From NCBI GenBank assembly GCA_029861085.1, contig JAOUAE010000030.1, forward strand, positions 1-12,369: 12,369 nucleotides of DNA, written 5' to 3'. The position numbers and the translations under genes are program-made. The DNA is from Candidatus Nitrosopumilus sp. (lineage in GTDB: Archaea > Thermoproteota > Nitrososphaeria > Nitrososphaerales > Nitrosopumilaceae). Of the stretch, positions 140-12,369 are shown one piece after another. Every line of letters begins with the position of its first letter. The first letter of the stretch is position 1. Under the pieces are notes generated by a model. That model ran no database searches. It worked only from the letters and a program-made list of their open reading frames with translations, and was not told where the DNA came from.

Positions 140-175
140 TTAGCATTAGAATTAGTTTTATCACTGTTTTAAATA
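140..175 (+). promoter_or_regulatory. Promoter of the 197-2184 gene run
   Basis: The upstream box TTAGCATTAG (140-149, one mismatch to TTAGCACTAG) ends 48 bp before the ATG at 197. The TATA box TTTAAATA (168-175) is centred 25.5 bp before that ATG, which predicts a leaderless mRNA. A second element, TTATCACT (158-165), lies just upstream of the TATA box where a BRE would sit. A further variant, TTGCCACTAG, occurs at 122-131. Confidence 0.65.
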
Positions 176-196
176 TCATAAATCATTTTTAATCTC

Positions 197-382
197 ATGG
201 CAGAAGAACAAGAATGGGCAAATTTACTGGCCGAAATCTTTGACAAGCTTACGCAAAAGCACGCCTCAATCACTTATGATTTTGAGAATCTTGAGATGCA
301 AGGTAAGGTCGAAAAAGAAGGCAAGACGATCCCAACAGGTACGGTTTCCCTGACCGGAAAACTGACAATTACGGCAAAATAA
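197..382 (+). CDS. Small conserved-looking hypothetical protein (61 aa)
   Basis: I do not recognise the family. The product is 61 residues, acidic at the N-terminus (MAEEQEWANLLAEIF) with a predicted amphipathic helix over roughly residues 1-20. It continues as a run of alternating polar and hydrophobic residues (YDFENLEMQGKV, TVSLTGKLTITAK) that reads as beta strands. No signal peptide, membrane segment or cysteine is seen. The ATG sits exactly where transcription should begin relative to the TATA box, so the message is probably leaderless. It is the first gene of a run: the next gene begins 7 nt after its stop and a Rossmann-fold protein follows. Its reality is supported by the promoter fit and tight packing; its function is unknown. 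Confidence 0.75.
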   Translation: MAEEQEWANLLAEIFDKLTQKHASITYDFENLEMQGKVEKEGKTIPTGTVSLTGKLTITAK

Positions 383-389
383 GGTGTAG

Positions 390-764
390 ATGTTAAAAAT
401 GAAAAACTTTGATATTCCCGCCAATTTTTTATCTTTCTTACAAGGTGGGAGGCTGAACGTCACATGTGATGGATCCCCATCAGTTAATTTTATGACAGAA
501 GGTAGCTCTCGAATCCTTGACATTATTGACATTCCGATTGAAATTACGAAAAGGCCTGGTCTGATCAAGCAACTATCAGAGGCAAAAGACCTTGCAAAAA
601 ATCTGAAACAGCAAAGTATTACGCTTGAAGTCCGATTGCAAGGAGAGACAGTACTCAAGCTGGGAGAAAAGGCAAATCCAAAACTTGCAAAGATTGTAAC
701 GCTAAGCAGCGACATTGAGATAACTGACTTGAGAAAACTCAAAAAACTCAGTGACGTGTTCTAA
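390..764 (+). CDS. Hypothetical protein (124 aa), second gene of the run
   Basis: Family not recognised. The 124-residue product has no signal peptide or membrane segment. It looks like a mixed alpha/beta protein, with a helical middle (about residues 52-75, rich in K, L and A) flanked by beta-like stretches such as ITLEVRLQGETVLKLG and the C-terminal IVTLSSDIEIT. It starts 7 nt after the preceding stop. A GGTG at 383-386 is a possible Shine-Dalgarno, 3 nt from ATG 390 and 12 nt from the in-frame ATG at 399, so the start could be either one. Sixteen nt separate its stop from the ATG of the SDR-type gene, suggesting co-transcription. The beta-rich 61-aa and 124-aa proteins may work as partners, which is inference from adjacency only. 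Confidence 0.75.
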   Translation: MLKMKNFDIPANFLSFLQGGRLNVTCDGSPSVNFMTEGSSRILDIIDIPIEITKRPGLIKQLSEAKDLAKNLKQQSITLEVRLQGETVLKLGEKANPKLAKIVTLSSDIEITDLRKLKKLSDVF

Positions 765-780
765 TCACAGGCTAGCAGGC

Positions 781-2184
781 ATGTCAGAAAATGAATCACC
801 GATAGAAATATCTCTACAATCAATCCAATCTTCTGTAAAAAACAAACCTTACAGCATCATGGTTACTGGTGCTACAGGATTTATTGGAACCCGTCTGATA
901 TCACATCTTTGCAAACTTGGATATTCAGTCAAGGGAATGTCCAGAAAGAAAATTTCAGATACTTCAAATGTAAAATATGTTCAGGCCGATGTCTTTGACG
1001 TGTCTCAACTGGAGAAGGCGTTAACCAGAATCGAGGTCGCATACTATCTGCTTCATTCAATGGAGGGAAGCAAGGATCACTGGAAGGAATTTGCGTCCCG
1101 TGAAAAGACTCAAGCTCAGAACTTCCTTAAAGCTGCAACATATGCAGGAGTAAAAAGAATAATCTACCTTGGTGGACTCGTAAATGACAGCCTGGAATTG
1201 TCCCCGCACATGAAAAGCAGAAAAGAGGTTGGAGAGATACTTGCATCTGGCAATATTCAGGTGACAGAACTGCGCGCATCACTGATCATAGGAGCCCAAG
1301 GTGGATCATATGCCATGCTAAGATATTTGGTAGAAAGGTTGCCAATAATGGTATGTCCCTCCTGGGTAAAGTCACTTGCACAGCCTATAGCAGTAGATGA
1401 CGTGATACAATATCTTGCAGGATGCATGACACATGATGAGACTGCAGGAAAAATCTACGAGATAGGAGGCAAGGACAAAATGAGTTACGAGCAGCTCATG
1501 CGAGTCTATGCAAAATATTTGAACAAGAAACTGTTTGTAATAGAGATTCCGTTTCTCACCACGCGGCTGTCCTCATACTGGGTTGACCTAATAACGCCTG
1601 TAAAGGCCTCATTGGCAAGGCCGTTGATAGACAGCCTGGTTCATGATACTGTAGTTACTGATGATTCCATTACCAAGATTATCCCATTGCAACTAAAGTC
1701 TGTAAGGGAGTCAATAGATATCGCGACAAAGGAAATCAGGGAAACCCCACCCATCACACCCGTTAGAGAAGAGAAGACAGGATTTAAGATTAACCAGAAG
1801 CTTTTGCTTGCATCACTAATCGCAATGACAATATTAGGAACCACCTACTATTGGCTGGATGATCGGACTGAACTCTTTGAACCCATTTGGATTTTGGCAG
1901 GAGTGCTTTGGTATATCGCAATAATAGCGGCAATTGTCTTTGTCAAAAGCAAAACAAGGTTGGGATTTCTTATTGGGGGAATACTCTCGTGGATAACCTT
2001 GGCATTCTGGCTCTTTGACAACTTTTATGTCGTGTTTGAAACTTCGCTGATAATTGACAAGCCAAACGAACTGATAACAATCAGGAATTTCATCTGGGCT
2101 GCATTGTCATCTATAGCTGTAATCGCATCACATAATACGTTTCACAAAATAATTGACTATCAGTACAAGGGAAAGCCAATATGA
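781..2184 (+). CDS. NAD(P)-binding SDR/NmrA-type protein with C-terminal membrane domain
   Basis: The 467-residue product has an N-terminal Rossmann fold with the dinucleotide motif TGATGFIG (about residues 29-36). It also has the AYYLLHSM segment (87-94) typical of the atypical/extended SDR subgroup that includes YbjT-like and NmrA-like proteins. The catalytic YxxxK of classical SDRs is not obvious, so a redox-sensing or isomerase role is as likely as dehydrogenation. From about residue 340 the chain becomes hydrophobic, with about four membrane spans (roughly 340-357, 368-387, 394-414, 438-452), placing the nucleotide domain at the membrane. I chose ATG 781; a GTG at 751 would overlap the upstream gene and adds only a non-conserved-looking 10 residues. 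Third in a run with the two small genes; its stop is 7 bp from a convergent gene. Substrate unknown. Confidence 0.85.
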   Translation: MSENESPIEISLQSIQSSVKNKPYSIMVTGATGFIGTRLISHLCKLGYSVKGMSRKKISDTSNVKYVQADVFDVSQLEKALTRIEVAYYLLHSMEGSKDHWKEFASREKTQAQNFLKAATYAGVKRIIYLGGLVNDSLELSPHMKSRKEVGEILASGNIQVTELRASLIIGAQGGSYAMLRYLVERLPIMVCPSWVKSLAQPIAVDDVIQYLAGCMTHDETAGKIYEIGGKDKMSYEQLMRVYAKYLNKKLFVIEIPFLTTRLSSYWVDLITPVKASLARPLIDSLVHDTVVTDDSITKIIPLQLKSVRESIDIATKEIRETPPITPVREEKTGFKINQKLLLASLIAMTILGTTYYWLDDRTELFEPIWILAGVLWYIAIIAAIVFVKSKTRLGFLIGGILSWITLAFWLFDNFYVVFETSLIIDKPNELITIRNFIWAALSSIAVIASHNTFHKIIDYQYKGKPI

Positions 2185-2191
2185 TCATGCT

Positions 2192-2458
2192 CTATTTTTC
2201 AAGACTTTCGGCATACCATGCTTCCACTGAACTGATGCATTTCACATATTCGTTTTTCTCATCTAATGCATCAGAATTTTCATAATTATTTTCACAGTGA
2301 TTCAAACCTGCTTGGTATGTCTGCTCTAAGTTTTGTGATTCATCAAAAGGTGTTTCTATAGACATTGGAAAGGTTTCTGAGACAATGGCATTTATGATAA
2401 ACAATGCTGCCAAAAATAGCGGCATTCCAACTGCAAGTATGACAAAAATTTGTCTCAT
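2192..2458 (-). CDS. Small membrane-anchored or secreted hypothetical protein (88 aa)
   Basis: Family not recognised. The N-terminal 25 residues form one long hydrophobic segment (FVILAVGMPLFLAALFIINAI) after a short basic start. It could be an uncleaved anchor or a signal peptide. The rest is acidic and hydrophilic, with cysteines at 55 and 74 spaced for a possible disulfide in a small helical extracytoplasmic domain. The start is the ATG at 2458. A weak AT-rich TATA-like octamer (TATTTTAG on the minus strand, 2480-2487) sits at the leaderless distance. The gene is convergent with the SDR-type gene and divergent from the DICT-like gene. The recurrent upstream box in that divergent spacer is at the right distance only for the DICT-like gene. 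Confidence 0.7.
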   Translation of the reverse strand: MRQIFVILAVGMPLFLAALFIINAIVSETFPMSIETPFDESQNLEQTYQAGLNHCENNYENSDALDEKNEYVKCISSVEAWYAESLEK

Positions 2459-2513
2459 GCTGTTATAATGTCGGTATCGCTAAAATAGGACATCATTATT
2501 TTGAATTTTAAAC

Positions 2514-2550
2514 TTAGCACTAGTTGAATAGTTTATCACTATGTTAAATA
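2514..2550 (+). promoter_or_regulatory. Promoter of the DICT-like gene
   Basis: A perfect TTAGCACTAG (2514-2523) ends 49 bp before the ATG at 2572. TATA box GTTAAATA (2543-2550) is centred 25.5 bp before it. TTATCACT (2533-2540) lies immediately upstream of the TATA box, as in the promoters at 158-175 and 4751-4767. Confidence 0.7.
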
Positions 2551-2571
2551 CTCCAAAAACCTGAATGATTC

Positions 2572-3132
2572 ATGAAAGACACATACAAAAGTTTCATGGA
2601 TGAAATCTGGAGCCAGTTTCCGGGACTTTCTGATCAGGCATTGACAGATCTCACGGATCACAATATTCTCTGGTCATTAGACGAATACGTAAAGGCTGGA
2701 TATGTCAATTTCAAAACAGGAACAAAGGAGTTGTACAGACTGAGCATACTGCTTGAAAATTACGCTGTAAAGCACCATGAACCGCTATTGTCAACTTTTG
2801 AGACTGAAGAGCGCTACAGATACGTAGAGGACAGATACGTTGAGATTCTAAAAAAAGTCCCAAAGGCATGGATAATAGGGGATTTTAAGAACTCACTTTT
2901 GGCCCCACAACCACCAGAAACGACTGAGGTAGTAAGCTGTGATGGAACAAACATCGTAGACATGTGGATAGTGGTTACAAACGGACCAGAAGGCCCATTC
3001 GGATTGGTTGCAGAAGATATTGGAGATAAAATGTACAGGGGATTCTTTTCAATTAGTCCAAAGGTGATAGGAAAGGCAATTCAGACCATCAATGAGGCAT
3101 TAATAATTAACATTGATATGTCAAAAAAATAA
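2572..3132 (+). CDS. DICT-like sensory domain protein
   Basis: The 186-residue soluble protein has an N-terminal helical part (residues 1-65). Its C-terminal half resembles the DICT domain: the IIGDFKN strand (101-107), a central beta strand DMWIVVTNGP (130-139), then GLVAEDIG and MYRGFFSISPKVIGKAI (154-170), a strand-turn-helix ending I recall from that family. DICT was described as a sensory domain fused to diguanylate cyclases and two-component proteins, with a proposed role in light response. Here it stands alone, without an obvious output domain. The start is fixed by the promoter: ATG 2572 is where transcription should start. It is a single-gene unit followed by a T-run. The family assignment is from memory of motif shape and should be tested by profile search. 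Confidence 0.6.
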   Translation: MKDTYKSFMDEIWSQFPGLSDQALTDLTDHNILWSLDEYVKAGYVNFKTGTKELYRLSILLENYAVKHHEPLLSTFETEERYRYVEDRYVEILKKVPKAWIIGDFKNSLLAPQPPETTEVVSCDGTNIVDMWIVVTNGPEGPFGLVAEDIGDKMYRGFFSISPKVIGKAIQTINEALIINIDMSKK

Positions 3133-3176
3133 TAGATTTCAAAACGTGATAACTTTTGAAAAATAATCTCTACCTA

Positions 3177-3183
3177 TTTTTTT
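3177..3183 (+). terminator. Poly-T terminator after the DICT-like gene
   Basis: Seven consecutive T residues on the coding strand, 45 bp after the stop and before the next promoter, match the usual archaeal U-tract termination signal. No hairpin is needed or seen. Confidence 0.45.
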
Positions 3184-3207
3184 AAAACCAATTTATGATG
3201 AAAAATA

Positions 3208-3243
3208 TTACCACTAGAATATTTTTTTGTTATTAATTAAATA
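3208..3243 (+). promoter_or_regulatory. Promoter of the zinc-ribbon gene
   Basis: TTACCACTAG (3208-3217, one mismatch) ends 48 bp before ATG 3265. TATA box ATTAAATA (3236-3243) is centred 25.5 bp before it. This selects ATG 3265 over the in-frame TTG at 3259. Confidence 0.65.
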
Positions 3244-3264
3244 ATATTTCAGAGAACATTGTTT

Positions 3265-3444
3265 ATGAATCAAAAGTATTCAAGCCGAGAAGCATTATTG
3301 GCAGACTGTCCTAACTGCAGACAGCCTTATCTCGTACTGTTGAAATCTGCATCAGGGAAAAAAGGAGAGGACTTGCTGGCATGCAAAAGCTGTAAGCTGG
3401 CGATATTTGCAGAGGAACTGAAAAAGAAACTGTTTACTGTTTGA
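3265..3444 (+). CDS. Small zinc-ribbon protein (59 aa)
   Basis: The 59-residue basic protein has two CxxC knuckles, C15-P-N-C18 and C40-K-S-C43, spaced 21 residues apart, as expected for a single zinc ribbon. A short helical tail (FAEELKKKLFTV) follows. No other domain is present, so it may be a nucleic-acid- or protein-binding adaptor; the exact partner cannot be read from the sequence. The promoter fit shows that translation starts at ATG 3265 on a leaderless message rather than at TTG 3259. The next gene starts 34 nt downstream on the same strand with no T-run between, so the two are probably co-transcribed. Confidence 0.75.
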   Translation: MNQKYSSREALLADCPNCRQPYLVLLKSASGKKGEDLLACKSCKLAIFAEELKKKLFTV

Positions 3445-3478
3445 TGAGGGGAATAAAGAACATGACAAGTGATAGACA

Positions 3479-3853
3479 ATGCCACATGTAGTTTTTGATA
3501 AAGAAATTGACCTTGAGTCTTTCTCTAAAGAATTCAGAGAAATGATGATAAAGAAGCCATTCTTCATAAAACTGCTTAACGTCTATACAGACAGGGAGAA
3601 AAGAACCGTATTGGTTCCCGCAGTAGTGATTGACAAACTGCATCAGCAATTTTTAATTGAGATTTCCACCAGAAAAGACAAAACCACAATCAGGCTATTT
3701 CCTGGAACGGATCCAGAAAAGACAGACGGCATCAAGATGTCACTGGGTTTGACTGCAAAAATAATTCAGGAGATGAATCCTAATCACAAAATCACAAAAA
3801 CAAACATTGACGCATTCTTGTTTAAACCAGAAGCAAATAAAATCAATGTATAG
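3479..3853 (+). CDS. Conserved-looking hypothetical protein (124 aa)
   Basis: Family not recognised. The product is 124 residues, basic and soluble, with no cysteine, signal peptide or membrane span. It reads as alpha/beta: an N-terminal helix (residues 12-25, DLESFSKEFREMMI), beta-like stretches over about 30-77 (TVLVPAVVIDK, FLIEISTRK, TTIRLFPG), then a helix (MSLGLTAKIIQEM). It lies 34 nt after the zinc-ribbon gene and probably shares its transcript. A GTGAT (3470-3474) just before the ATG could act as a weak Shine-Dalgarno. It ends 27 bp from the 3' end of the convergent broken monooxygenase gene. Confidence 0.7.
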   Translation: MPHVVFDKEIDLESFSKEFREMMIKKPFFIKLLNVYTDREKRTVLVPAVVIDKLHQQFLIEISTRKDKTTIRLFPGTDPEKTDGIKMSLGLTAKIIQEMNPNHKITKTNIDAFLFKPEANKINV

Positions 3854-3880
3854 TGAGATATTTTTGGAGTTTGTCTTATA

Positions 3881-4183
3881 CTATTGAGTTATCTCATGGA
3901 AAAGATCTACAGAGTTTGATTTTATCGCCTCGTTGATTGCCTGACGGGTCATGTTGTGGGATTGCCTGTGCAGATCACTTTTCATATAATTTTTGAATGA
4001 TTCCTCGTCCCTGAACCGAAAAATTCCTCTAAACTCGTTTGGATTTTTCTTGCTTCTCAAAAACTGCAGCCCTAAAAATCCGTCAACTGAATCGACTTAC
4101 CTGCTTCTTTCCTTAAATGACATCTCAAGTTCATTGGATATATCTTGGCTGATGTTAATTTTGGATATGGCGACAAAAACCAT
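3881..4183 (-). pseudogene. Antibiotic biosynthesis monooxygenase (HmoA-like) gene with one in-frame stop
   Basis: On the minus strand, ATG 4183 opens a 100-codon frame ending at TAG 3883-3881. It is interrupted only by a TAA at 4099-4097 (codon 29). Reading through gives a full-length ABM-fold (PF03992) protein: first strand MVFVAISKINI, helix ISNELEMSFKERSR, the family's DGFLGLQFLRS strand (codons 34-44), then FRGIFRFRDEESFKNYM and the helix SDLHRQSH. Family members of about 100 residues act as small dimeric monooxygenases or haem-degrading enzymes. The stop replaces a residue between SR and VD where relatives often have Leu, so TTA or TTG to TAA is a one-base change. No frameshift is present and codon use looks intact, so the loss appears recent, or it is a sequencing error. 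Confidence 0.75.
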
Positions 4184-4203
4184 GGCTTGGAATTACATTT
4201 CTC

Positions 4204-4213
4204 TTTTAAATAT
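4204..4213. promoter_or_regulatory. Shared bidirectional TATA box between two broken genes
   Basis: TTTTAAATAT is nearly symmetric and is the only TATA-like element in the 58-bp spacer between ATG 4183 (minus) and ATG 4242 (plus). Its centre is about 25 bp from the minus start (leaderless) and about 33 bp from the plus start (short leader of about 8 nt). The recurrent TTAGCACTAG box is absent here. Confidence 0.55.
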
Positions 4214-4241
4214 CTCTTTACGTTTTCTTGGTTGGGTAAAA

Positions 4242-4661
4242 ATGGAATTTCTAGATGATGAAGCAATTGAGAGATTAGCCAAGAAAATTACAGAAAAATA
4301 TTATTCATTTGACAAGGGTGCCTTGAGAAGATGAGGGGCTGAATGCAAAGAAAAGACTGCCTACAGTACCAAAAAGACGCTGCAAAGACTCAGAACATGC
4401 GTCGAGCTGGATGACCTTGAGAGATTTTGCAATTACTTGGAGTGGCTTACAACAGTTATGACTTCGAGAAAAATAAAATACAATGTGATATTTGATCATA
4501 CTGAAATCTGCTACAAGGCAATCAAATCAGAATGGATCAAAGAGAAAAACAAGTTCAAAAAGAACTCTGCTGCAAAATATGTTCATTTTATGAAAGAAGG
4601 ATTGGAGCATCTGAGAAACAATGCCCCCACACCAAAAAAAGATTCGATAGTTGCAGAATAG
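4242..4661 (+). pseudogene. Hypothetical gene (139 codons) with one in-frame TGA
   Basis: ATG 4242 opens a frame that ends at TAG 4659-4661, interrupted only by TGA at 4332-4334 (codon 31). Before the stop it reads MEFLDDEAIERLAKKITEKY, an amphipathic helix. After it come 108 codons with a helical, charged product with several cysteines (ECKEK, RTCVE, RFCNY, EICYK) and the stretch LERFCNYLEWLTTVMTSRKI. The downstream part has no good start before TTG 4437, so independent translation of the larger piece is unlikely. An AGA or CGA to TGA change would explain the break, as the preceding codons are both Arg. Family not recognised. It shares a promoter with the broken monooxygenase gene. It may be a recent pseudogene, a strain polymorphism or a base-call error. 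Confidence 0.55.
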
Positions 4662-4731
4662 TTGGAATCACATCTTTTGTTTATGATGAATTTTATGAAC
4701 ATATTTTGAAAATAATTGTGAAAACATACTG

Positions 4732-4767
4732 TTATCACTAGAATAATTTCTTATCACTAGTTAAATA
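4732..4767 (+). promoter_or_regulatory. Promoter of the candidate ncRNA, with a duplicated box
   Basis: TTATCACTAG occurs twice as perfect direct repeats, at 4732-4741 and 4751-4760. The distal copy takes the standard position 48 bp from the predicted start at about 4789. The proximal copy abuts the TATA box GTTAAATA (4760-4767). This is the strongest promoter-like signal in the stretch 4662-5134, which otherwise has no protein gene. Confidence 0.65.
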
Positions 4768-4788
4768 TCATAATGCAAAACAATCTAT

Positions 4789-4950
4789 GAAGGGTTTGGT
4801 TGTCGCCTGAAAACAGCAGTTTCAGGCCTTAAACCAATACTGAGACCAAAGTCGCCTCACCCGCATTGGAATCAGAGCCAAACTGTCGCCATTATACTCC
4901 TCCTGTTTCTGGCCTTAAGTTTTGAAAACCTTTTTTCAATTTTTTATTGT
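4789..4950 (+). ncRNA. Candidate structured non-coding RNA (about 160 nt)
   Basis: A full promoter predicts transcription from about 4789, and two T6 runs (4931-4936, 4940-4945) would end it. No frame of more than a few codons fits; ATG 4787 gives only MKGLVVA. G+C over 4791-4920 is 65 of 130 (50%), well above the AT-rich surroundings, as expected for a stable RNA. A strong stem-loop is visible: GCCTGAAA (4805-4812) pairs with TTTCAGGC (4820-4827) around a 7-nt loop. It is extended by TTGGTT (4796-4801) pairing with AACCAA (4832-4837) across an internal loop. GTCGCC occurs three times (4802, 4851, 4885) and GGCCTTAA twice (4825, 4911). I do not recognise it as SRP, RNase P or a C/D-box RNA. 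Confidence 0.55.
4929..4945 (+). terminator. Double poly-T terminator of the candidate ncRNA
   Basis: Two T6 tracts (4931-4936 and 4940-4945) lie directly after the GC-rich transcript, preceded by a small GTTTT/AAAAC symmetric stretch. This is a standard archaeal U-tract terminator. Confidence 0.5.
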
Positions 4951-4973
4951 TTTACATGAATTTTTTGAGCGGG

Positions 4974-5006
4974 AAAAAAATTCTACCCAGATTCTGCTGG
5001 GTAGAA
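4974..5006 (-). terminator. Hairpin plus T-run terminator for the 56-aa gene
   Basis: TTCTACCCAG (4981-4990) and CTGGGTAGAA (4997-5006) form a perfect 10-bp stem around a 6-nt loop. On the minus strand the stem is followed at once by a T7 tract (4980-4974), the layout of a bacterial intrinsic terminator. It ends the minus-strand unit about 130 bp after its stop codon and faces the ncRNA terminator. Confidence 0.6.
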
Positions 5007-5134
5007 GTTTCTAAGGTCTTCACATTCGAGAGGAATGCTAGTCTATATTGTCTTTCATTTTATAAAAAACCTCTTTGCAATTTTTACGGGTTAGCACCAG
5101 GTTACTCCATCTCATTTTTCATTTGTCTTTGTTG

Positions 5135-5305
5135 CTACCACTTTGCCATTCTAATTCCTCCAGCAACAGATACCAACCCAATCAAGATCCACACCATTGT
5201 GTCGTTCCAGTTAAAGTTACTCCCAATGTTGACCCCCTTCTTTTCTAGTATGTACTGTCTAACTGCCTCATGAGATTTGTTTCTGAATTGTGGAAGGTTT
5301 TTCAT
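5135..5305 (-). CDS. Small single-span membrane protein (56 aa)
   Basis: ATG 5305 to TAG 5137-5135 on the minus strand encodes 56 residues. There is a polar, basic N-terminal half (MKNLPQFRNKSHEAVRQYI), then NWNDTMVWILIGLVSVAGGI, one membrane span (about residues 37-51), and a short basic end (RMAKW). The positive residues at the end suggest a cytoplasmic C-terminus. The composition is protein-like throughout, with regular codon use, and a weak TATA-like octamer (CTAAATCA, 5327-5334) sits 25.5 bp before the ATG. The downstream hairpin terminator supports an independent unit. Family not recognised; a role as a small subunit or regulator of a membrane complex is possible but unsupported. The 178 bp between this gene and 5484 hold nothing else I can support. 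Confidence 0.6.
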   Translation of the reverse strand: MKNLPQFRNKSHEAVRQYILEKKGVNIGSNFNWNDTMVWILIGLVSVAGGIRMAKW

Positions 5306-5473
5306 TGTGTGTAATGGACAATATTATGATTTAGCGTCTTTGCCTCTTTTTTTACTAGGTTTTCTTCTTTTGTTTGTAGTCTATCAACCTAAAAATACAA
5401 TTCCCTGTTCTGGACACGATGATTAAGTAAAAGATTATTTTACAGATGTAAAGATAGAACCATACAAAGGGAG

Positions 5474-5479
5474 AAAAAA
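5474..5479 (-). terminator. Poly-T terminator after the 440-aa secreted protein gene
   Basis: A T6 tract on the minus strand begins 5 bp after the stop codon of the 5484-6806 gene. No hairpin is visible. Confidence 0.4.
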
Positions 5480-5483
5480 TTAT

Positions 5484-6806
5484 TCACTCCAAGTTTAATG
5501 GAATAGAAATACTACCAAAGTCCTCATTGATTCTAAAGAAATACTCTTTTGCAGAATCATACTCAAACTCGGTTCCACCATATCCAATGTTTGGACCAAA
5601 GAGCATGTTAAACTCTTTAGAATCCCCAGGATTCATTACAATTTGTCCGCTTGTAAAGTCCATTCCAGAATATTTGAAGGCCTTTTCACCATTCCAAGCA
5701 TCATAGGCGCATATTTGGGGACTGGTACAGTTTATTGCCGTGATTTCGGAGCTGGTATTCTCTGCAAGCATACGAACTGATAATATGGCTTGTCCAGTTG
5801 GAGTGATGTAAAATTCATTTCCTTCAGAACCAATACCTTGCCAATAATATGTGACTGGTCCTACATCAAACTTTTCAGCATCCATTTTGTAAGTGTGTAA
5901 AGTCATAGCCTTTTTGATTGGCTTTTCACAATCGATTCTCTTGTATGCTGTAACAATTTCTGAGCATTTATCCAATTCTGCTTGTAGTTCTGCTAATTCT
6001 GAATCCATATTTTTTGGTTTGGCAGATGTCATTTGTTCTGTATCTGCATTTGTAGAGACAGATACTAGTCCAGATTCAATCAAATGCTGAATGCCATTTA
6101 CAAATTCACCGTCAGAGATTGTTCCGTCTGCCCACCAACCGGCGTTACTTTTTACCCAAGCTGGAACGGCATCAGATGTTTGAGATGATGTGTCAGTTGG
6201 AGATACTGTTATGATTCCATCCTTAATCAAAAATTCTATCCCTGAAAGAAATTCACCATCAGAGATTGTTCCGTCTGCCCACCAACCGGCGTTACTTTTT
6301 ATCCAAGCTGGAATTTCATTTTGGACAGACGTCATAGGTCGTACAGCAGGATCAAGAGTGTTTAAAAGATCATCCATGTTTTGGCCTGAAATTTTTACAA
6401 CTGCAGCTGAAACAATTTCAGAAGTATTGCCATCAGGTAATGTAAAATCAACATATTTTGCATACAGTACATCGCCAGGATTAGATACCAGTCGATTTTT
6501 TGCGGTTTCACCAGAATCTGCAATGTATACAGTCCCTTTGAAAATTCCACTATACACCCCATTCTCTATAACTTGAATTTCTAAGCCATCAGGAGAAGTA
6601 TCAGACCAAACAGTAATTGTAAACTTGTCAGCAAAATTAGGATATTCTTTTTTATTCATATCGTCGTCTTTTACATAAATATCAGCAAAGGAATTGCTTG
6701 AAACAACATCATGTTTCCAATAAATTGTTCCAACATTAGAGGAATCTGCAAATGCTAAAGGAGTGACAATAATCAGCAATGGAAAAATAATTACAAGTTT
6801 GTTCAA
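5484..6806 (-). CDS. Secreted protein with two PAW(V/I)KSNAGWWADGTIS repeats (440 aa)
   Basis: Residues 1-20 form a cleavable signal peptide (MNKLVIIFPLLIIVTPLAFA). Residues 24-140 look like a beta-sandwich domain with acidic turns (YVKDDDMN, SPDGLE, GVYSGIFKG). Two copies of the Trp-rich repeat follow (about 166-196 and 215-245), then a helix with a C-x11-C pair (281/293) and a C-terminal Ig-like beta domain (about 310-440) with C360/C366. The repeat is common in exported proteins of ammonia-oxidising archaea, and its function is, as far as I know, unsettled. The start is TTG 6806: it fits the promoter spacing and gives a complete signal peptide. The C-terminal 170 residues are paralogous to the 6949-7857 product. 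Likely cell-surface or periplasm-like space; ligand unknown. Confidence 0.85.
   Translation of the reverse strand: MNKLVIIFPLLIIVTPLAFADSSNVGTIYWKHDVVSSNSFADIYVKDDDMNKKEYPNFADKFTITVWSDTSPDGLEIQVIENGVYSGIFKGTVYIADSGETAKNRLVSNPGDVLYAKYVDFTLPDGNTSEIVSAAVVKISGQNMDDLLNTLDPAVRPMTSVQNEIPAWIKSNAGWWADGTISDGEFLSGIEFLIKDGIITVSPTDTSSQTSDAVPAWVKSNAGWWADGTISDGEFVNGIQHLIESGLVSVSTNADTEQMTSAKPKNMDSELAELQAELDKCSEIVTAYKRIDCEKPIKKAMTLHTYKMDAEKFDVGPVTYYWQGIGSEGNEFYITPTGQAILSVRMLAENTSSEITAINCTSPQICAYDAWNGEKAFKYSGMDFTSGQIVMNPGDSKEFNMLFGPNIGYGGTEFEYDSAKEYFFRINEDFGSISIPLNLE
6121..6165 (-). repeat. 45-bp repeat unit, copy 1
   Basis: This encodes the VPAWVKSNAGWWADG-type motif. It is identical to the other three copies except for one base, which changes Val to Ile; every synonymous site is the same. 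Confidence 0.9.
6268..6312 (-). repeat. 45-bp repeat unit, copy 2
   Basis: Second copy within the 440-aa protein gene, carrying the Ile variant. Locally rich in CCG, GCG and GCC compared with the AT-rich surroundings. Confidence 0.9.
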
Positions 6807-6828
6807 TAATAAAATTTGATATTAAAGA

Positions 6829-6864
6829 TATTTAAAAAAAGCAGTCATTTTGAACTAGTGCTAA
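6829..6864 (-). promoter_or_regulatory. Promoter of the 440-aa secreted protein gene
   Basis: Minus-strand TTAGCACTAG (6864-6855, perfect) ends 49 bp before the TTG at 6806. TATA box TTTAAATA (6836-6829) is centred 26.5 bp before it. The spacing supports a leaderless message beginning at a TTG start codon. Confidence 0.7.
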
Positions 6865-6937
6865 AATTAAAATTCTGAAGAACTATAGGATTGAATTACT
6901 TTAGAAAATAAAATATTGAAATAAACTCAATAAAAAT

Positions 6938-6944
6938 AAAAAAA
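6938..6944 (-). terminator. Poly-T terminator after the 302-aa secreted protein gene
   Basis: A T7 tract on the minus strand begins 4 bp after the stop, followed by more T-rich sequence, separating this gene from its downstream paralogue. Confidence 0.45.
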
Positions 6945-6948
6945 GTGT

Positions 6949-7857
6949 TTATCCCAAGTTTAATGGGATAGAGTCACTACCATATGATTCATTGATTCTA
7001 AAGTGGTAATCTTTTGCAGAATCATACTCAAATGTTGTTCCACCGCCTCCGATGCTTGGCCCAAACATCATGTTGAATATTTTAGCCTCTCCTGGTTTTA
7101 GAACTACCTGACCGTTTGTAAAGTCCATTTGGGAATATTTGTATACATCATCACCATTTGTAATGTCATAGTTACAAATTGCAGGACCTGTACAGAAAAG
7201 TGCCTCATTTTTATCAGAACCAGTATTCTCAACCAATATTCTAAGATTTAACAATGCTTGGCCTGATGAAGTTATCTCAAAAGTATTTCCTTCAGTATCT
7301 AATCCTGTCCAATAGTAAGTAACCGGTCCAACTTGAAATTGTTGAGAATCACTTTTGATTTCATATGCAATGATCTCAAGTTTTGCATTTCTTTCACAAT
7401 TTAGTCTATCATATGCTTTAGTGATTTTGGCACAATTATCTAATTCTGCTTGGAGTACAATTAACTCTGAATCATTGACAATAGCAGATTCCTGTTGTGC
7501 AGGTGCACTTTCAGAACTTGAAACATTAACAATTCCAATTTTTATAAGATGTTGAATGCCATTTACAAATTCACCGTCAGAAATTGTTCCGTCTGCCCAC
7601 CAACCGGCGTTACTTTTTATCCAAGCTGGAACCCCTTCTTGCGTAGTTTCAGTAGATACAGTTGTTGGAGGTATTGTCAGTATTCCTTCTTTTATTAGAT
7701 GTTGAATGCCTGATACAAATTCTGTCTCAGAAATTGTTCCGTCTGCCCACCAACCGGCGTTACTTTTTACCCAAGCTGGAACTCCTTCTGCTGTAGCAAA
7801 TGGAGTAATTGATCCAGCTAGGAGAATTGCGGAGATTGCAATTATTGTTGCTTTCAT
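6949..7857 (-). CDS. Secreted paralogue with two PAW(V/I)KSNAGWWADGTIS repeats (302 aa)
   Basis: A signal peptide (residues 1-23, ending PFATAEG) is followed almost at once by two Trp-rich repeats (about 27-57 and 77-107). A helix with C142-x11-C154 and the same C-terminal Ig-like domain come next (about 172-302, with VGPVTYYW, C222/C228 and the ending SIPLNL). It lacks the N-terminal beta-sandwich of the 440-aa neighbour. The two proteins share cysteine spacing exactly, so the same disulfides are likely. ATG 7857 fits the TATA spacing, giving a leaderless message. Each paralogue has its own promoter with the recurrent box and its own T-run, so they form a tandem duplication with separate transcription rather than an operon. 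Role probably extracytoplasmic binding; ligand unknown. Confidence 0.85.
   Translation of the reverse strand: MKATIIAISAILLAGSITPFATAEGVPAWVKSNAGWWADGTISETEFVSGIQHLIKEGILTIPPTTVSTETTQEGVPAWIKSNAGWWADGTISDGEFVNGIQHLIKIGIVNVSSSESAPAQQESAIVNDSELIVLQAELDNCAKITKAYDRLNCERNAKLEIIAYEIKSDSQQFQVGPVTYYWTGLDTEGNTFEITSSGQALLNLRILVENTGSDKNEALFCTGPAICNYDITNGDDVYKYSQMDFTNGQVVLKPGEAKIFNMMFGPSIGGGGTTFEYDSAKDYHFRINESYGSDSIPLNLG
7586..7630 (-). repeat. 45-bp repeat unit, copy 3
   Basis: Located in the 302-aa protein gene, Ile variant, identical to copy 2 over all 45 bp although the two lie in different genes. Confidence 0.9.
7736..7780 (-). repeat. 45-bp repeat unit, copy 4
   Basis: N-terminal copy in the 302-aa protein gene, Val variant, identical to copy 1 over all 45 bp. 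Confidence 0.9.
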
Positions 7858-7878
7858 TGAGAATAATTTGCATTGATG

Positions 7879-7915
7879 GTATATAACCTGGTTCTAATTT
7901 ATTCCCTAGTGCTAA
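7879..7915 (-). promoter_or_regulatory. Promoter of the 302-aa secreted protein gene
   Basis: Minus-strand TTAGCACTAG (7915-7906, perfect) ends 49 bp before ATG 7857. TATA box TTATATAC (7886-7879) is centred 25.5 bp before it. Confidence 0.7.
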
Positions 7916-7942
7916 AATGTACTGTTAGATATTGTAAGAAAA

Positions 7943-7981
7943 CTAGTGGTAATTCGATTTTTAACTTTTTGGCTTTATATG
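7943..7981 (+). promoter_or_regulatory. Promoter of the YbgA-like gene
   Basis: CTAGTGGTAA (7943-7952) is the box in reverse orientation with one mismatch, still 48 bp from ATG 8000. TATA-like TTTATATG (7974-7981) is centred 22.5 bp before that ATG, slightly closer than usual; GTG 8003, one codon later, would fit the TATA spacing exactly. Confidence 0.55.
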
Positions 7982-7999
7982 CAATTGTCAGAATCTGAA

Positions 8000-8542
8000 A
8001 TGGTGAGTAGAGATTTTACACATTTGAATGCAGATCAGATACAAGTTACCGAAAAAGCCACTGTCAAGTTTGTATTGGATAGGTTTTCCCAGGTAAAAAA
8101 AGCAAAACGAATTAGAGAACTAGTTGAATTTCAGGCCATGAACAAGTACATGCTGATGGTTCACAATCAAGAAGAATTAAAGATACTTGGAAACCTGGTT
8201 GCCAGTCATAAAAAAATTTCATTATCGGATATTTTAGACAAATATGAAGAGCGCCTCAAAATTGCTCTTAGAAAGGAGCCTACAATAAAGACACATCTCA
8301 ACGTAATGATGCATATTTTTGGATATTTCTCAAATCATTTTAGTCAATCAGAAAAGGATCTGTTTAATGAATTGTTACGCCAATTCAAAGGGGGTCAAAT
8401 TACTACTGGTAAAATGTTATCCGAAATTGGCCCATTAATTTACAGATTCAATAACACATACTTGGCAAGGCAGACATATTTTTTGTTGTACGCAGACACA
8501 AGACCTGGAATTTTATTTGCAGTTTTTAATAATAAAAATTAA
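8000..8542 (+). CDS. ybgA: YbgA-like DUF1722 protein
   Basis: The 180-residue soluble protein matches the YbgA/DUF1722 family as I remember it: KFVLDRFSQVKKAKRIRELVEFQ (23-45), the family hallmark KYMLMVHNQEELKILGNLVA (49-68), a helical KYEERLKIAL segment and the KTHLNVMMHIFGYFSNHFS block (97-115). It ends with YLARQTYFLLY. Length is typical of the stand-alone domain. The biochemical function is not established. In E. coli, ybgA precedes the photolyase gene phr, and DUF1722 genes recur near light-response genes in other bacteria. Upstream in-frame starts (GTG 7946, ATG 7979) are rejected because they lie before the expected transcription start. The CarH-like gene follows 72 bp downstream with its own promoter. 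Confidence 0.8.
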   Translation: MVSRDFTHLNADQIQVTEKATVKFVLDRFSQVKKAKRIRELVEFQAMNKYMLMVHNQEELKILGNLVASHKKISLSDILDKYEERLKIALRKEPTIKTHLNVMMHIFGYFSNHFSQSEKDLFNELLRQFKGGQITTGKMLSEIGPLIYRFNNTYLARQTYFLLYADTRPGILFAVFNNKN

Positions 8543-8557
8543 TTTTTTAAGAATAAA

Positions 8558-8604
8558 TTAGCACTATAGTCACTAATAGGCATTAGTTAAATACACAGTG
8601 CTAG
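8558..8604 (+). promoter_or_regulatory. Promoter and possible operator of the CarH-like gene
   Basis: TTAGCACTAT (8558-8567, one mismatch) ends 48 bp before ATG 8615. TATA box GTTAAATA (8586-8593) is centred 25.5 bp before it. Unusually, a second, inverted half-box AGTGCTA (8597-8603) lies downstream of the TATA box, so that TAGCACT (8559-8565) and AGTGCTA flank it symmetrically. A protein bound to both arms would occlude the core promoter. Confidence 0.6.
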
Positions 8605-8614
8605 GAAATCCAAC

Positions 8615-9463
8615 ATGGTATACATCAGAGCCAAGAAAGTCAAAGGTGATCAATATCTTTACCTAGTCAAAAGTGTCTGGGATTCAAAGAAAAGCACATC
8701 GAAGCAGGAAATTATAAAATATCTAGGCAAGGCATCCCAAGTAATAAAAAATGACATACCAGTGGAGTACAGAGAGAATCCAAAAATTCTATCCGTTTTA
8801 GCATCGCACAGCCCACAAGATATTAAAAAAAGGGAAGAGGCATCAGGAAAATCCATAAAACAATTATACAAAAAACTGACAGATGGTGACATTAACAGTA
8901 GTGTTCAAATTTATGTTGACTACGTTAAGATTTTTAATTCTGCAGACTTTTTTGATAAAATTCTAAAACCTGTAATGTTTCAAATAGGAGATGAATGGGC
9001 AAACAACAAAATCAGTATAGCAACTGAACATGTTGCAAGCAACGTTGCACAAGCGCTTGTAAAAATCATCATGGATAAAGTAACTACTTCGGGTAACAAA
9101 AAGAAGATTCTCTTATGCGTGCCAGTGGGAGAAGAGCATCATCTGGGATGCGATGTTATCGAGACATTTCTTACAGGTAAAGGATACAAAGTTTTCAACA
9201 TGGGAACATCCATTCCATCCGAGTCAGTATTGCATTTCATTGAGCATAACAATCCGGATATCATTATGATTTCAATTACATTAGAAGATAATCTCAAAGC
9301 AGGGCAAAGATTGGTCAAAAAGATAAAAGAAAATTTTAAGGTTCCTGTTGTTGTTGGCGGTTATGCATTGGAACAAGAAAAAATACCAAAATTTGATGCG
9401 GAGATTTTTGTAAATACGACTCTAAATGATCTGCCAAAATTAATTCGTACATCAATCACTTAG
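8615..9463 (+). CDS. CarH-like adenosylcobalamin-binding photoreceptor-type protein
   Basis: The 282-residue protein has three parts. Residues 1-40 (YIRAKKVKGDQYLYLVKSV to IKYLGKA) resemble the small N-terminal module of some IS-type transposases, in place of the MerR domain of CarH. Residues about 80-155 form a four-helix cap with W128-x9-E138-H139, exactly the W-x9-EH signature that caps adenosylcobalamin in CarH. Residues 163-282 are a B12-binding Rossmann domain with E173-x-H175-x-x-G178 (lower axial His175; Glu in the first position as in CarH), S220-x-T222 and G248-G249. In bacteria such proteins are light-sensitive repressors of carotenoid and photolyase genes. ATG 8615 is at the predicted transcription start. 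It overlaps the convergent CrtI-like gene by 8 bp. A corrinoid methyltransferase subunit is the main alternative. Confidence 0.8.
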   Translation: MVYIRAKKVKGDQYLYLVKSVWDSKKSTSKQEIIKYLGKASQVIKNDIPVEYRENPKILSVLASHSPQDIKKREEASGKSIKQLYKKLTDGDINSSVQIYVDYVKIFNSADFFDKILKPVMFQIGDEWANNKISIATEHVASNVAQALVKIIMDKVTTSGNKKKILLCVPVGEEHHLGCDVIETFLTGKGYKVFNMGTSIPSESVLHFIEHNNPDIIMISITLEDNLKAGQRLVKKIKENFKVPVVVGGYALEQEKIPKFDAEIFVNTTLNDLPKLIRTSIT

Positions 9464-10793
9464 AATGCTTTAAGAAATTCTCTATTTTTGGACAGCATAG
9501 AATCGAACTATGTGCAGCAGAATCAGTCCCTATTCCGTAACTTATAGTCGAATCTCCCACAAAATATAGTCCCCTTACTTGCGATATATCATGAGGCATT
9601 TTTGATTTCCATACCAAGCCAGGCTCCTTTACTACTGATTCTACTAATTTCCAGGCCATGGGTCTATCCCAAAGTAATGATTTTTCAAACTCAGGATAGA
9701 TAGAATTTAATTCGTCTTTCATTTTTTCTACAATCTCTTTAATCTTTTTTGGGTTCTCAGATACCGAAGGATGAACCGGAGTTCCTGCAATCATCAAATG
9801 CTCTCCTGGTGGACATACTGATGGGGTGATATTTGAAATGAAGAAAAATCCCTTTGTGGTAAAATCCCCTACAGGAAAAACTATTTGCCTAGAGTCAATT
9901 TTTCTATTAAGAGCAAAATGAACTTCAACTACTGCGGTAGTCTTGTCTAATTTGTTTACTTTGTCAATAAAGTTTTGATCAAATACATCACGATCAAACA
10001 GTTGATTGATTCCCTGATATGCAGGCAATGATATGACAACGCACTCTGAAGGATGAAACATTCCATCTTTTGTAATTATTCCTTGAACTTTAGAATCCTT
10101 TACGACAATTTTTTTAATCGGTGAGTTCAGGTGAATTTGTCCATTATTTGCGATAACATAATCCCCCAAAACCCGAGATATTGCATCATAGCCACCATCA
10201 TCAGGATATGCAAATTCACTTGTCCCGCCTTTGAAAGGATTTGCCCGAATCATAGTTCGTGCAAACTCGCCCAGTGAAATATGATCAGCAGTATCTGCAA
10301 ATGCCAGCATGCAAATAGCTTCAAAGAAGGCATTTGTGTTAGGATCAAGTTTTTTTGTAATTTCAGTTAAAGAGAGATTGTCCCACTCTTCAGTTTTTTT
10401 TATCGATGTAAATGCCATTGGAAGTAATATTTTGAGAAGTTTAATTCTACTCCAAAACGAAATCAATGAAAGTTGAAGTAAATCTAAGATTCCTTTTGGA
10501 TAATTGTGAAATCCAGTATCAGAATAAAATGCAATTTTATCTACTTTGGCAAGTTTGAGATTAGATTCAATGTTAAGTTTTTTTAAAATTTGAAAGATTG
10601 CGGATTTTTTGTAAAAGGGCATTATGTGAAATCCATTGTCTAGAATGTGATTTCTGAAAGTGGTAGACGCAGTTCTGCCTCCTACTTTGCCCATTTTCTC
10701 AAAAACTTCAACAGAATTACCACTTTTGACAAGTAATGAGGCAGTAGTCAGTCCTCCTATTCCAGCACCAATCACATAAACGGGATAATCCAT
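9456..10793 (-). CDS. CrtI-like (phytoene desaturase-related) FAD oxidoreductase
   Basis: The 445-residue protein has an N-terminal FAD-binding Rossmann motif VIGAGIGGL (G9-x-G11-x-x-G14), with E32 at the end of the second strand for ribose binding. KVGGRTAS (37-44) follows, the GG motif of the amine oxidase/phytoene desaturase superfamily. Near the C-terminus is GLYFVGDSTISYGIGTDSA, the second FAD-contact motif of CrtI-type proteins. The substrate could be a carotenoid or another isoprenoid; the sequence alone does not decide. The start is ATG 10793: TATA and upstream box both fit it, and the TTG at 10808 lies before the expected transcription start. It overlaps the CarH-like gene tail to tail, 54 bp separate it from the SRPBCC gene upstream, and it has its own promoter. 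Confidence 0.8.
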   Translation of the reverse strand: MDYPVYVIGAGIGGLTTASLLVKSGNSVEVFEKMGKVGGRTASTTFRNHILDNGFHIMPFYKKSAIFQILKKLNIESNLKLAKVDKIAFYSDTGFHNYPKGILDLLQLSLISFWSRIKLLKILLPMAFTSIKKTEEWDNLSLTEITKKLDPNTNAFFEAICMLAFADTADHISLGEFARTMIRANPFKGGTSEFAYPDDGGYDAISRVLGDYVIANNGQIHLNSPIKKIVVKDSKVQGIITKDGMFHPSECVVISLPAYQGINQLFDRDVFDQNFIDKVNKLDKTTAVVEVHFALNRKIDSRQIVFPVGDFTTKGFFFISNITPSVCPPGEHLMIAGTPVHPSVSENPKKIKEIVEKMKDELNSIYPEFEKSLLWDRPMAWKLVESVVKEPGLVWKSKMPHDISQVRGLYFVGDSTISYGIGTDSAAHSSILCCPKIENFLKHSK

Positions 10794-10814
10794 ACGGTTT
10801 GGAACCAAAATTTG

Positions 10815-10851
10815 TATTTATAATCGGGCTAACTTTTTAGTCTAGTGCTAA
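10815..10851 (-). promoter_or_regulatory. Promoter of the CrtI-like gene
   Basis: Minus-strand TTAGCACTAG (10851-10842, perfect) ends 49 bp before ATG 10793. TATA box TATAAATA (10822-10815) is centred 25.5 bp before it. The box overlaps the last codons of the upstream SRPBCC gene (stop at 10850-10848). Confidence 0.7.
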
Positions 10852-11303
10852 TTTTTTGGATCATTCGAATCTAAAACAAATTTTTCAGCACAACCAAGAA
10901 ATTCATCCATAACTCTAGCCATTTGCTTTTTTATTAAAAATCCAAATGGTAAAAATAACTTTGAAATACCATTTAGCTTGATCGAAACATCGATTGTCAC
11001 ATTTGTCCCATCAGATATTTTATCGTATGATTCAACAAAAGATGATCCTCGTATTGGACCAGACAGTATATGAACTTCATGTATTTTGGGACGGACAATC
11101 ACGTGTTTTGTTTTTACAACTAAAAGACTGCCTAAAAAATGAATTTTTTCATCTACAAATATTTCATTTCCAATTGATTTTTTTATTATTATGGATTTAA
11201 AATATTTTGGTAAAATACTGGGAAAATTTTCAACATCTATACTAATTGAATAGAGTTTGTCCCTAGTCATCCTTGAATTTTTCTTTAAAGTAAAACGTAT
11301 CAT
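10848..11303 (-). CDS. SRPBCC (START/polyketide cyclase-like) ligand-binding protein
   Basis: The 151-residue protein has the order and hydrophobicity of the SRPBCC helix-grip fold: a first strand (MIRFTLKKNSRM), a helix (TRDKLYSISIDVENFPSILPKYF, the usual SxEDVxxFPxxLPxY-like region), five to six strands (11-123), and a long C-terminal helix (LIKKQMARVMDEFLGCAEKFVL). Such proteins bind hydrophobic ligands, including lipids and polyketides, and some are aromatase/cyclases or CoxG/COQ10-like carriers. The neighbouring CrtI-like gene makes an isoprenoid ligand attractive, which is inference. Predicted transcription start at about 11338 gives a roughly 35-nt leader with GAGGG about 9 nt before ATG 11303, so this gene, unlike most here, appears to have a Shine-Dalgarno leader. 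Confidence 0.75.
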   Translation of the reverse strand: MIRFTLKKNSRMTRDKLYSISIDVENFPSILPKYFKSIIIKKSIGNEIFVDEKIHFLGSLLVVKTKHVIVRPKIHEVHILSGPIRGSSFVESYDKISDGTNVTIDVSIKLNGISKLFLPFGFLIKKQMARVMDEFLGCAEKFVLDSNDPKN

Positions 11304-11360
11304 GCCAGGACGCCCTCTAGAAGAACTTTGTACAACAGTTTCATCTACAAGTGCTTTCGG

Positions 11361-11395
11361 ATATAAAAAAATTCAATATCGTCATATAGTGCTAA
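11361..11395 (-). promoter_or_regulatory. Promoter of the SRPBCC gene
   Basis: Minus-strand TTAGCACTAT (11395-11386, one mismatch) and a TATA box TTTTATAT (11368-11361) jointly predict a start at about 11338, leaving a leader of about 35 nt before ATG 11303. Confidence 0.6.
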
Positions 11396-11452
11396 CTTGA
11401 AATTATTTTTATTTATGAGGTACAAAAATTCAAACTCGATATGTGAATGTAA

Positions 11453-11488
11453 TTAGCACTAGACAGGTTTTCTTTTCTGGGTTAAATA
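11453..11488 (+). promoter_or_regulatory. Promoter of the 51-aa gene and TFB
   Basis: A perfect TTAGCACTAG (11453-11462) ends 48 bp before ATG 11510. TATA box GTTAAATA (11481-11488) is centred 25.5 bp before it. It is divergent from the SRPBCC promoter. Confidence 0.7.
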
Positions 11489-11666: not shown

Positions 11667-12369
11667 TTGAATGATTTGATTCATCTCAGAAATTGTAAAA
11701 AAATTGTAATTATAACTGATCTGGTAACTGGAGAAATTGCCTGTAGCTATTGTGGCGCAGTTGTTTCAGAAAAATCAGTAGATACTGGCAATGAATCCTC
11801 AAGTATTACTGGTGAGGAATATCTAAAAAATTCAAGAACGGGCCAAAAAATATCATTGAAGATGGCAGACATGGGACTGTCAACAATCATGGAATCCAAA
11901 GATAGGGATTCAACCGGAAGACCCCTTTCTGCTGAAAATAAGAGAATGTTTTATCGCCTGAGAATGTGGGATAGAAACAGCAGACTTGCAAATAATAAAT
12001 CACATACCAAGGCATTCACATTACTAGACGGTATAAGAGCAAAGCTAGGACTTCCAAATGCTGTAGTTGAAGAGACTGCCTATCTGTTTAGAAAAATGAC
12101 ATCAAAAAAAAGTCTTTCAGGTAGATCAACTATAGGGATTTTATGTGCCACAACATACATTGCATGCAGGTTAACTAACACCCCAAGAACAATTCAGGAC
12201 GTAGCCAATGCGGGAAATATAAAAAGGAAGCAACTTCAAAGTATCTCCAGATTTATTTTAAAAGAACTTGACATACATCCTGAATCATATAACCCGATTG
12301 AATTTGTAGCAAGAATTGCAAATGCAACAAATGCATCAGAAAAGACAAAACGCGATGCAATGAAGATTT
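11667..12369 (+). CDS. tfb: Transcription initiation factor TFB (TFIIB homologue), 3' end missing
   Basis: The frame encodes about 234 residues and runs off the window; archaeal TFBs are about 300, so the last quarter is missing. TFB bridges TBP-TATA and RNA polymerase. Visible parts are an N-terminal zinc ribbon (about 10-36), a B-reader/linker region (GLSTIMESKDRDSTGRPLS, 69-87) and the first cyclin repeat (about 110-205), with LSGRSTIGILCATTYIACRL as the characteristic helix. The second repeat starts near 206. The ribbon has C10, C26 and C29 only: the position of the first Cys is Leu7, with His6 adjacent, so zinc binding may be altered. The start is TTG 11667, one base after the previous stop, 9 nt after GGAG; ATG 11671 is out of frame. 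Group members often carry several TFBs, and this is probably an alternative one. Confidence 0.85.
   Translation, partial: MNDLIHLRNCKKIVIITDLVTGEIACSYCGAVVSEKSVDTGNESSSITGEEYLKNSRTGQKISLKMADMGLSTIMESKDRDSTGRPLSAENKRMFYRLRMWDRNSRLANNKSHTKAFTLLDGIRAKLGLPNAVVEETAYLFRKMTSKKSLSGRSTIGILCATTYIACRLTNTPRTIQDVANAGNIKRKQLQSISRFILKELDIHPESYNPIEFVARIANATNASEKTKRDAMKI

Follow-up and report, generated by a model that had tools for sequence, protein, structure and literature searches.

CarH and LitR are the closest described counterparts of the system considered here. They combine a MerR domain, their defining feature, with a cobalamin module of helical and Rossmann parts, and they control light-protection targets through tandem 11-base-pair (bp) direct repeats that overlap promoter elements. 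CarH is recognised by the motif Wx9EH together with a long cobalamin motif, D/ExHxxG-x41-SxT-x22-27-GG (PMC9304148). In Pseudomonas, genes of the LitR light regulon, that is of the class II LitR proteins PplR and PmlR, include those for a photolyase, a short-chain dehydrogenase, a flavin adenine dinucleotide (FAD) oxidoreductase and a DUF1722 fusion (PMC9758184, PMC11417400). Here we describe a 12,369-nucleotide stretch of DNA from Candidatus Nitrosopumilus sp. (contig JAOUAE010000030.1, hereafter the window), in which a 10-bp box, TTAGCACTAG, stands at a fixed distance before a limited set of genes. The box probably acts as the operator sequence of a photoprotection regulon, and its probable reader is the cobalamin-binding protein encoded at 8615-9463, an archaeal relative of CarH/LitR. 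Ammonia-oxidizing archaea are widely reported to be inhibited by light, and among the open-licence papers listed (at most 25 per search, of up to 709 matching) none appeared, judged by title and opening of the abstract, to deal with a light-responsive regulator, or with this box, in these organisms. As far as we could find, the circuit is known from bacteria and has apparently not yet been described in marine ammonia-oxidizing archaea.

Eleven copies of the box were listed in the original prediction, and all of them are present, five exact and six with one change; the consensus is TT(A/g)(G/c)CACTA(G/t), placed 47-49 bp ahead of start codons. In the window the spacing to the starts had been given as 48-49 bp, which needs correcting to 47-48 bases between box and start codon. 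Nine of the eleven starts are start codons, while two are not at the base named: 4789 is the third base of the ATG at 4787, with which a seven-codon frame begins at the front of a conserved stretch lacking a long open reading frame (ORF), and 11338, the presumed start of a leader, lies 35 nucleotides upstream of ATG 11303. In 200 dinucleotide shuffles the number of matches with at most two mismatches averaged 8.51 (standard deviation 2.91, largest 16), and the window has 27. The exact box was counted 158 times in 70 sequences (1.17 megabases), where 1000 permuted motifs, a set that included the box itself once, averaged 2.4; the 70 sequences are the window and loci of 69 relatives, titled mostly Nitrosopumilus, Nitrosarchaeum or Nitrosopelagicus and reached via the amine oxidase protein. 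Four short loci, two of which overlap L005, extend the set to 74 sequences. Many of these are orthologous regions from species related to each other, and the same 74 underlie the TATA counts and promoter comparisons given below. In them, with ORFs called by a simple length rule, 158 of 508 copies (at most one mismatch) lie 46-50 bp before the start of an ORF of at least 100 amino acids; about 300 permuted motifs gave a mean of 0.82 and a maximum of 8 in that position. A comparison with coding regions had also been proposed and favours the box, as 83 of the 508 copies lie inside ORFs of this length, against 83% of permuted-motif matches and 80% of the DNA. The excess lies outside genes and 46-50 bp from starts, and a chance origin is ruled out by the window shuffles, the permuted motifs and the placement before starts.

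A rigid phase to TATA and start, on both strands, had been claimed for the box and is upheld, and it is what a general promoter element of these archaea would show as well. The distribution of the box speaks against such an element, which should be present at most promoters. There are 0-14 exact copies per genome in 35 whole genomes of relatives (the exact box being present in 34), and in box-rich loci, of 229 ORFs of at least 100 amino acids for which a well-placed TATA exists, 99 are preceded by a box (at most one mismatch) at 44-52 bp and 130 are not. The basal-element half of the original prediction is thus almost certainly wrong. Exact copies are often clustered at this locus: among the genomes listed, G007 has 7 of its 8 within 10 kb, G031 all 6 within 15 kb and G006 9 of its 14 within 19 kb, with 2 of 4 clustered in G001 and just 3 of 10 in G015. 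Across the 35 genomes, the box with a correctly placed TATA was matched 238 times, and the reversed pattern 20 times. The box looks like a regulon operator, and the second half of the prediction, the site of a regulator beside the platform of TATA-binding protein (TBP) and transcription factor B (TFB), is supported, with abundance tracking a single cobalamin-binding protein.

This protein contains B12-binding_2 (residues 81-152) and B12-binding (residues 165-256) domains, the helical and Rossmann module of CarH/LitR. Its best NCBIfam model is CarH, over residues 82-273 only and below the family cut-off; the first PDB matches in Foldseek are CarH (expect value, E, ~1e-11), and a second structure aligner ranks photocobilins and other cobalamin proteins first. 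Both CarH motifs are found in the 30 locus genes (30 loci returned from 35 genomes by similarity, the genes being recognised by a YLYL pattern). Among the best 120 of 1790 homologues, at 72% identity or above, the adenosyl-contacting Wx9EH is present in 120 and the long motif in 119. Five distant homologues, also found by similarity, all have Wx9EH, two of them with the long motif at strict spacing, and two of two paralogs lack Wx9EH. A four-part light signature (GxxW, EH, GxxH, GxxxP) has been derived with SignatureFinder, in a paper whose main text does not contain the word 'archaea' (PMC11796333). All four elements lie within residues 125-201 of the window protein. One regular expression recovers them in 95 of the same 120 homologues, and in 21 of the 24 sequences of alignment A1, which, like alignment A2 and a 43-gene set, was selected by Wx9EH, EEHHLG-type and YLYL-type N-terminus patterns, so that invariance there proves nothing. 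Photocobilins and CtMerR share this signature in their cobalamin modules and differ in their output domains. Among the matches listed, the protein goes under the public names 'cobalamin-dependent protein', 'MtbC1' or 'histidine kinase'. A second cobalamin-protein paralog near photolyase (G015, G035; L255, L256) has neither Wx9EH nor a box, and TTGGTACTCA stands at 44-45 bp; together with the cobalamin protein it is reminiscent of the CarA/CarH split.

The N-terminus departs from the bacterial regulators. A MerR-type winged helix-turn-helix was not found, there being no helix-turn-helix Pfam match and no alignment of the CarH model to this part, and since that domain defines CarH/LitR, the archaeal protein is a variant rather than a member of the family. 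In its place, residues 2-39 are modelled as three beta strands (predicted local distance difference test 89.5), and the stretch is found again at the start of two DDE transposases from another genome (E 3e-6 and 0.006), which suggests that the beta domain is of DNA-binding origin. Against solved structures it gave no sequence match and only weak fold matches, PC4-like and others, which does not make the fold new. Further differences are that the histidine following the tryptophan in CarH is missing and that the promoters are of the archaeal TATA/TFB kind. Class II LitR differs in being a B12-independent MerR protein that answers to a LOV protein.

The protein and the box go together. The cobalamin protein's own gene has a box (at most two mismatches) at a gap of 46-49 in 26 of the 30 relatives, 22 of them with at most one mismatch. 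In a distant set of 23 homologues (from 21 of the 22 genomes in the E-value band of 1e-30 to 1e-75, G167 being left out as a C-terminal fragment only), ten have a box with at most one mismatch at a gap of 46-52 and five more have one within 130 bp upstream. Four of the first five distant homologues have it at exactly 49 bp, at 35-41% identity, these five having been partly picked after phased boxes were seen near two of them (G129, G109). The two paralogs without Wx9EH have no box upstream. In 121 family genomes, where the protein was scored present at E<=1e-60 and G030 (split fragments) and unlisted genomes were scored absent, the 31 genomes with the protein and a dedicated TFB have a mean of 5.97 phased boxes (reversed-pattern control 0.90), the 22 with the protein and no dedicated TFB 3.91 (control 0.73), the three with the TFB and no detected protein 3.33, and the 65 with neither 0.52, close to the control of 0.55. 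Across 200 genomes of the class, phased boxes per genome fall from 6.5 with a close homologue (53 genomes) to 2.05 with a distant one and 0.38 without (125 genomes), against controls of 0.85, 0.55 and 0.30. G021, which lacks a full-length homologue, has no phased boxes, and its five exact copies all lie outside the range of 44-52 bp from a start.

Three points weigh against the cobalamin protein as reader: 8 of the 23 distant homologues have no forward box within 130 bp upstream, G139 and G249 have boxes and no detected protein, and among known structures the N-terminal domain has no relative with proven DNA binding. They would be accounted for if another regulator read the box and the cobalamin protein were merely a target or partner, which we consider improbable, given the operator kept at the protein's own promoter in many distant relatives, the co-occurrence across the family, and the lack of an obvious alternative in six mapped clusters, whose small genes were not tested singly. 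It has also to be asked whether the dedicated TFB paralog could itself read the box as an extended TFB recognition element (BRE), that is, as the site of an alternative basal factor. In favour, the cluster includes the TFB gene, which has a box of its own, a proximal repeat described below covers the BRE, and two of the three genomes with the TFB and no detected protein have boxes. Against this, 16 of the 22 genomes with the protein and no dedicated TFB have at least three phased boxes, one example being the L055 genome (G026) with its boxed photolyase, and the distal box lies about 20 bp upstream of TATA. A TFB reader is therefore very improbable, and it was rejected on the genomes that have boxes and the protein and no dedicated TFB.

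Many promoters contain a second direct repeat 18-19 bp downstream of the box, which was not part of the original prediction. In 132 non-redundant boxed promoters (from 210), aligned with the start codon at about position 57, a weaker copy, TTrsCayTak, follows 19 bp after the box and adjoins TTAAATA; as these promoters were taken with boxes of at most one mismatch and starts at gaps of 46-50, the conservation of the box is overstated and that of the second repeat is unaffected. The pattern is missing from the same region of 48 promoters without a box, which argues that the second copy is no general BRE feature; the 48 were selected for box absence and say nothing on box frequency at other promoters. 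At up to three mismatches, the second copy divides boxed promoters into two classes. It is present in all 30 cobalamin-protein and all three dehydrogenase promoters, in 28 of 43 for the secreted repeat protein and in 23 of 40 for the amine oxidase, and is absent from those of TFB (0/15), the 124-amino-acid family (0/19) and the 115-amino-acid family (0/4), while an upstream control gave one or none in each gene group. Direct repeats overlapping promoter elements recall CarH/LitR operators, from which these differ in their 10-bp unit and 18-19-bp period. In Nitrosopelagicus-type genomes (L185, L186, L187), the positions of box and repeat within the promoter of the cobalamin protein are shifted.

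A mechanism can be proposed on this architecture, in which DNA binding, cobalamin binding, response to light and the sign of regulation are what we infer for the cobalamin protein. Its C-terminal part would bind adenosylcobalamin, which light cleaves. Contact with the 10-bp box would fall to the N-terminal beta domain that takes the place of MerR, and the direct repeats, 19 bp apart, would hold two protomers arranged head to tail. About 48 bp separate the end of the distal site from the start codon, which would be roughly +1 if the genes, as assumed here, are leaderless. By analogy with CarH, the adenosylcobalamin-loaded protein would sit on the direct repeats as long as it is dark, and light would make it leave or change. 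The proximal site covers the BRE and touches TATA, so that a protomer bound there should shut out TFB; such a block would fit autorepression and a tight dark silence of two-site promoters, and we lean towards dark repression released by light at these promoters. A protomer on the distal box alone would take the position that archaeal activators occupy, and promoters with one site, those of the private TFB gene and others, may therefore be activated. For TrmBL1/Tgr, Ptr2 and TFB-RF1, too, the site lies just upstream of BRE/TATA, as for activation (PMC4158304); judged by name only these are unrelated proteins, and the TrmBL1/Tgr sites are palindromic, in contrast to the phased direct repeats here.

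The genes behind the boxes include those for the cobalamin-binding protein, DUF1722, FAD amine oxidase, a dehydrogenase, the TFB paralog, small cysteine-rich proteins and a photolyase, and this resemblance to bacterial LitR regulons (photolyase, dehydrogenase, FAD oxidoreductase, DUF1722) points to light. A putative photolyase has been reported in two Nitrosopumilus strains, with no light regulator named in that report as far as it is available to us (PMC6593220). No photolyase was seen in the window itself; in the 35 genomes there are 24 photolyase matches, in 21 genomes. A forward box stands at the gene or operon leader in 13 of the 24 (12 at 46-50 bp from the start, G009 at 93 bp), a reverse box alone in four (G007, G034 and G005 at 51 bp, G033 at 83 bp) and no box in seven. 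On re-examination G025 and G026 proved boxed, G014 and the second copies of G006, G032 and G035 unboxed, and the G003 match a fragment without an ORF. A reverse-oriented box also stands about 51 bp before DUF1722 in several relatives. Were the cobalamin protein to bind the box and yet sense cobalamin status or redox state rather than light, the intact cobalamin-binding motifs and the missing CarH histidine would fit, as would the place of Thaumarchaeota among the main cobalamin producers of soils (PMC6908642). We hold this to be unlikely, since photolyase and DUF1722 in the regulon, and the light signature, point to light.

The balance tips slightly towards a broader view, in which the class Nitrososphaeria possesses an ancient archaeal green/blue-light switch, a CarH-type cobalamin photosensor fused to a transposase-type DNA-binding domain, that controls its own gene, photolyase, redox proteins, a private TFB and a small RNA via a phased direct-repeat operator by TATA. 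With the protein, its 10-bp operator and the genes concerned now specified, photoregulation in ammonia-oxidizing archaea can be tested directly. A B12 photosensor with a different DNA-binding domain on a TATA/TFB promoter could be of use for archaeal optogenetics, and bears on how archaeal regulators touch the basal machinery. The features of the window are collected in Table 1.

Table 1. Boxes, second repeats and genes in the window; the gap is the number of bases between box and start codon.
Feature	Position	Strand	Remarks
Box TTAGCATTAG	140..149	+	gap 47 to ATG 197
Presumed operon: 61-aa (amino-acid) protein, 124-aa protein, NAD-binding NmrA/epimerase-type dehydrogenase	197..2184	+	
Exact box	2514..2523	+	gap 48 to ATG 2572
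Second direct repeat TTATCACTAT	2533..2542	+	19 bp downstream of box 2514..2523, adjoins TATA box
Conserved 186-aa protein	2572..3132	+	no Pfam match
Box TTACCACTAG	3208..3217	+	gap 47 to ATG 3265
Small CxxC-containing protein and 124-aa protein	3265..3853	+	
Box TTATCACTAG	4732..4741	+	precedes candidate small RNA
Second direct repeat TTATCACTAG	4751..4760	+	adjoins TATA TTAAATA
Candidate small RNA, without long ORF	4787..4935	+	two-site promoter; similar sequence in 3 other box loci
Two secreted-looking proteins, repeats of 'AWVKSNAGWWADGTIS' type	5484..7857	-	
Exact box	6855..6864	-	gap 48 to TTG 6806
Second repeat TTAGAACCAG of 7857 promoter	7888..7897	-	18 bp downstream of box
Exact box	7906..7915	-	gap 48 to ATG 7857
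Box TTACCACTAG, reverse orientation	7943..7952	-	gap 47 to ATG 8000 (DUF1722)
DUF1722 protein	8000..8542	+	
Box TTAGCACTAT	8558..8567	+	gap 47 to ATG 8615, cobalamin protein's own promoter
Second repeat TAGGCATTAG, 3 mismatches	8577..8586	+	adjoins TATA TTAAATA
Cobalamin-binding protein, 282 aa	8615..9463	+	candidate photoreceptor-regulator
FAD amine oxidase family protein	9456..10793	-	
Exact box	10842..10851	-	gap 48 to ATG 10793
Conserved 151-aa protein	10848..11303	-	no family match; SRPBCC-like by eye only
Box TTAGCACTAT	11386..11395	-	presumed start ~11338, 35-nucleotide leader to ATG 11303
Exact box	11453..11462	+	gap 47 to ATG 11510 (small ORF, then TFB gene)
Transcription factor B paralog, cut by window end	11667..12369	+	relative L012:5337-6236 with TFIIB repeats

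The stretch at 4787-4935 is a candidate for a light-controlled small RNA, as read from its sequence. Rfam (at the gathering threshold) and tRNA scans of the window gave no match. Similarity around it, promoter included (4722-4960), amounts to 83% over 218 nucleotides, 71% over 226 and 79% over 107 in L117, L091 and L112 respectively. By eye, two similar stem-loop units with TTGTCGCCTGA and GGCCTTAA can be made out in the stretch of about 150 nucleotides, and the folding z-score is -1.9.

Several observations in relatives stand beside these results. A G+C-rich relative, G028 (L259 and L057, the latter 62% G+C), retains the box ahead of the cobalamin protein and also, in the form TTGGCACCAT, ahead of the amine oxidase. 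An exact reverse box, CTAGTGCTAA, was seen by eye in the 70 bp upstream of the distant cobalamin-protein genes of L294 and L295 (G207, G195). In L055 the photolyase and DUF1722 genes diverge from either side of a single box at 7030-7039, whose distances to the two starts are about 47 and 49 bp, and this one site may serve both. Look-alikes, by eye, of the 186-amino-acid protein head photolyase operons in two relatives (L255, L256).

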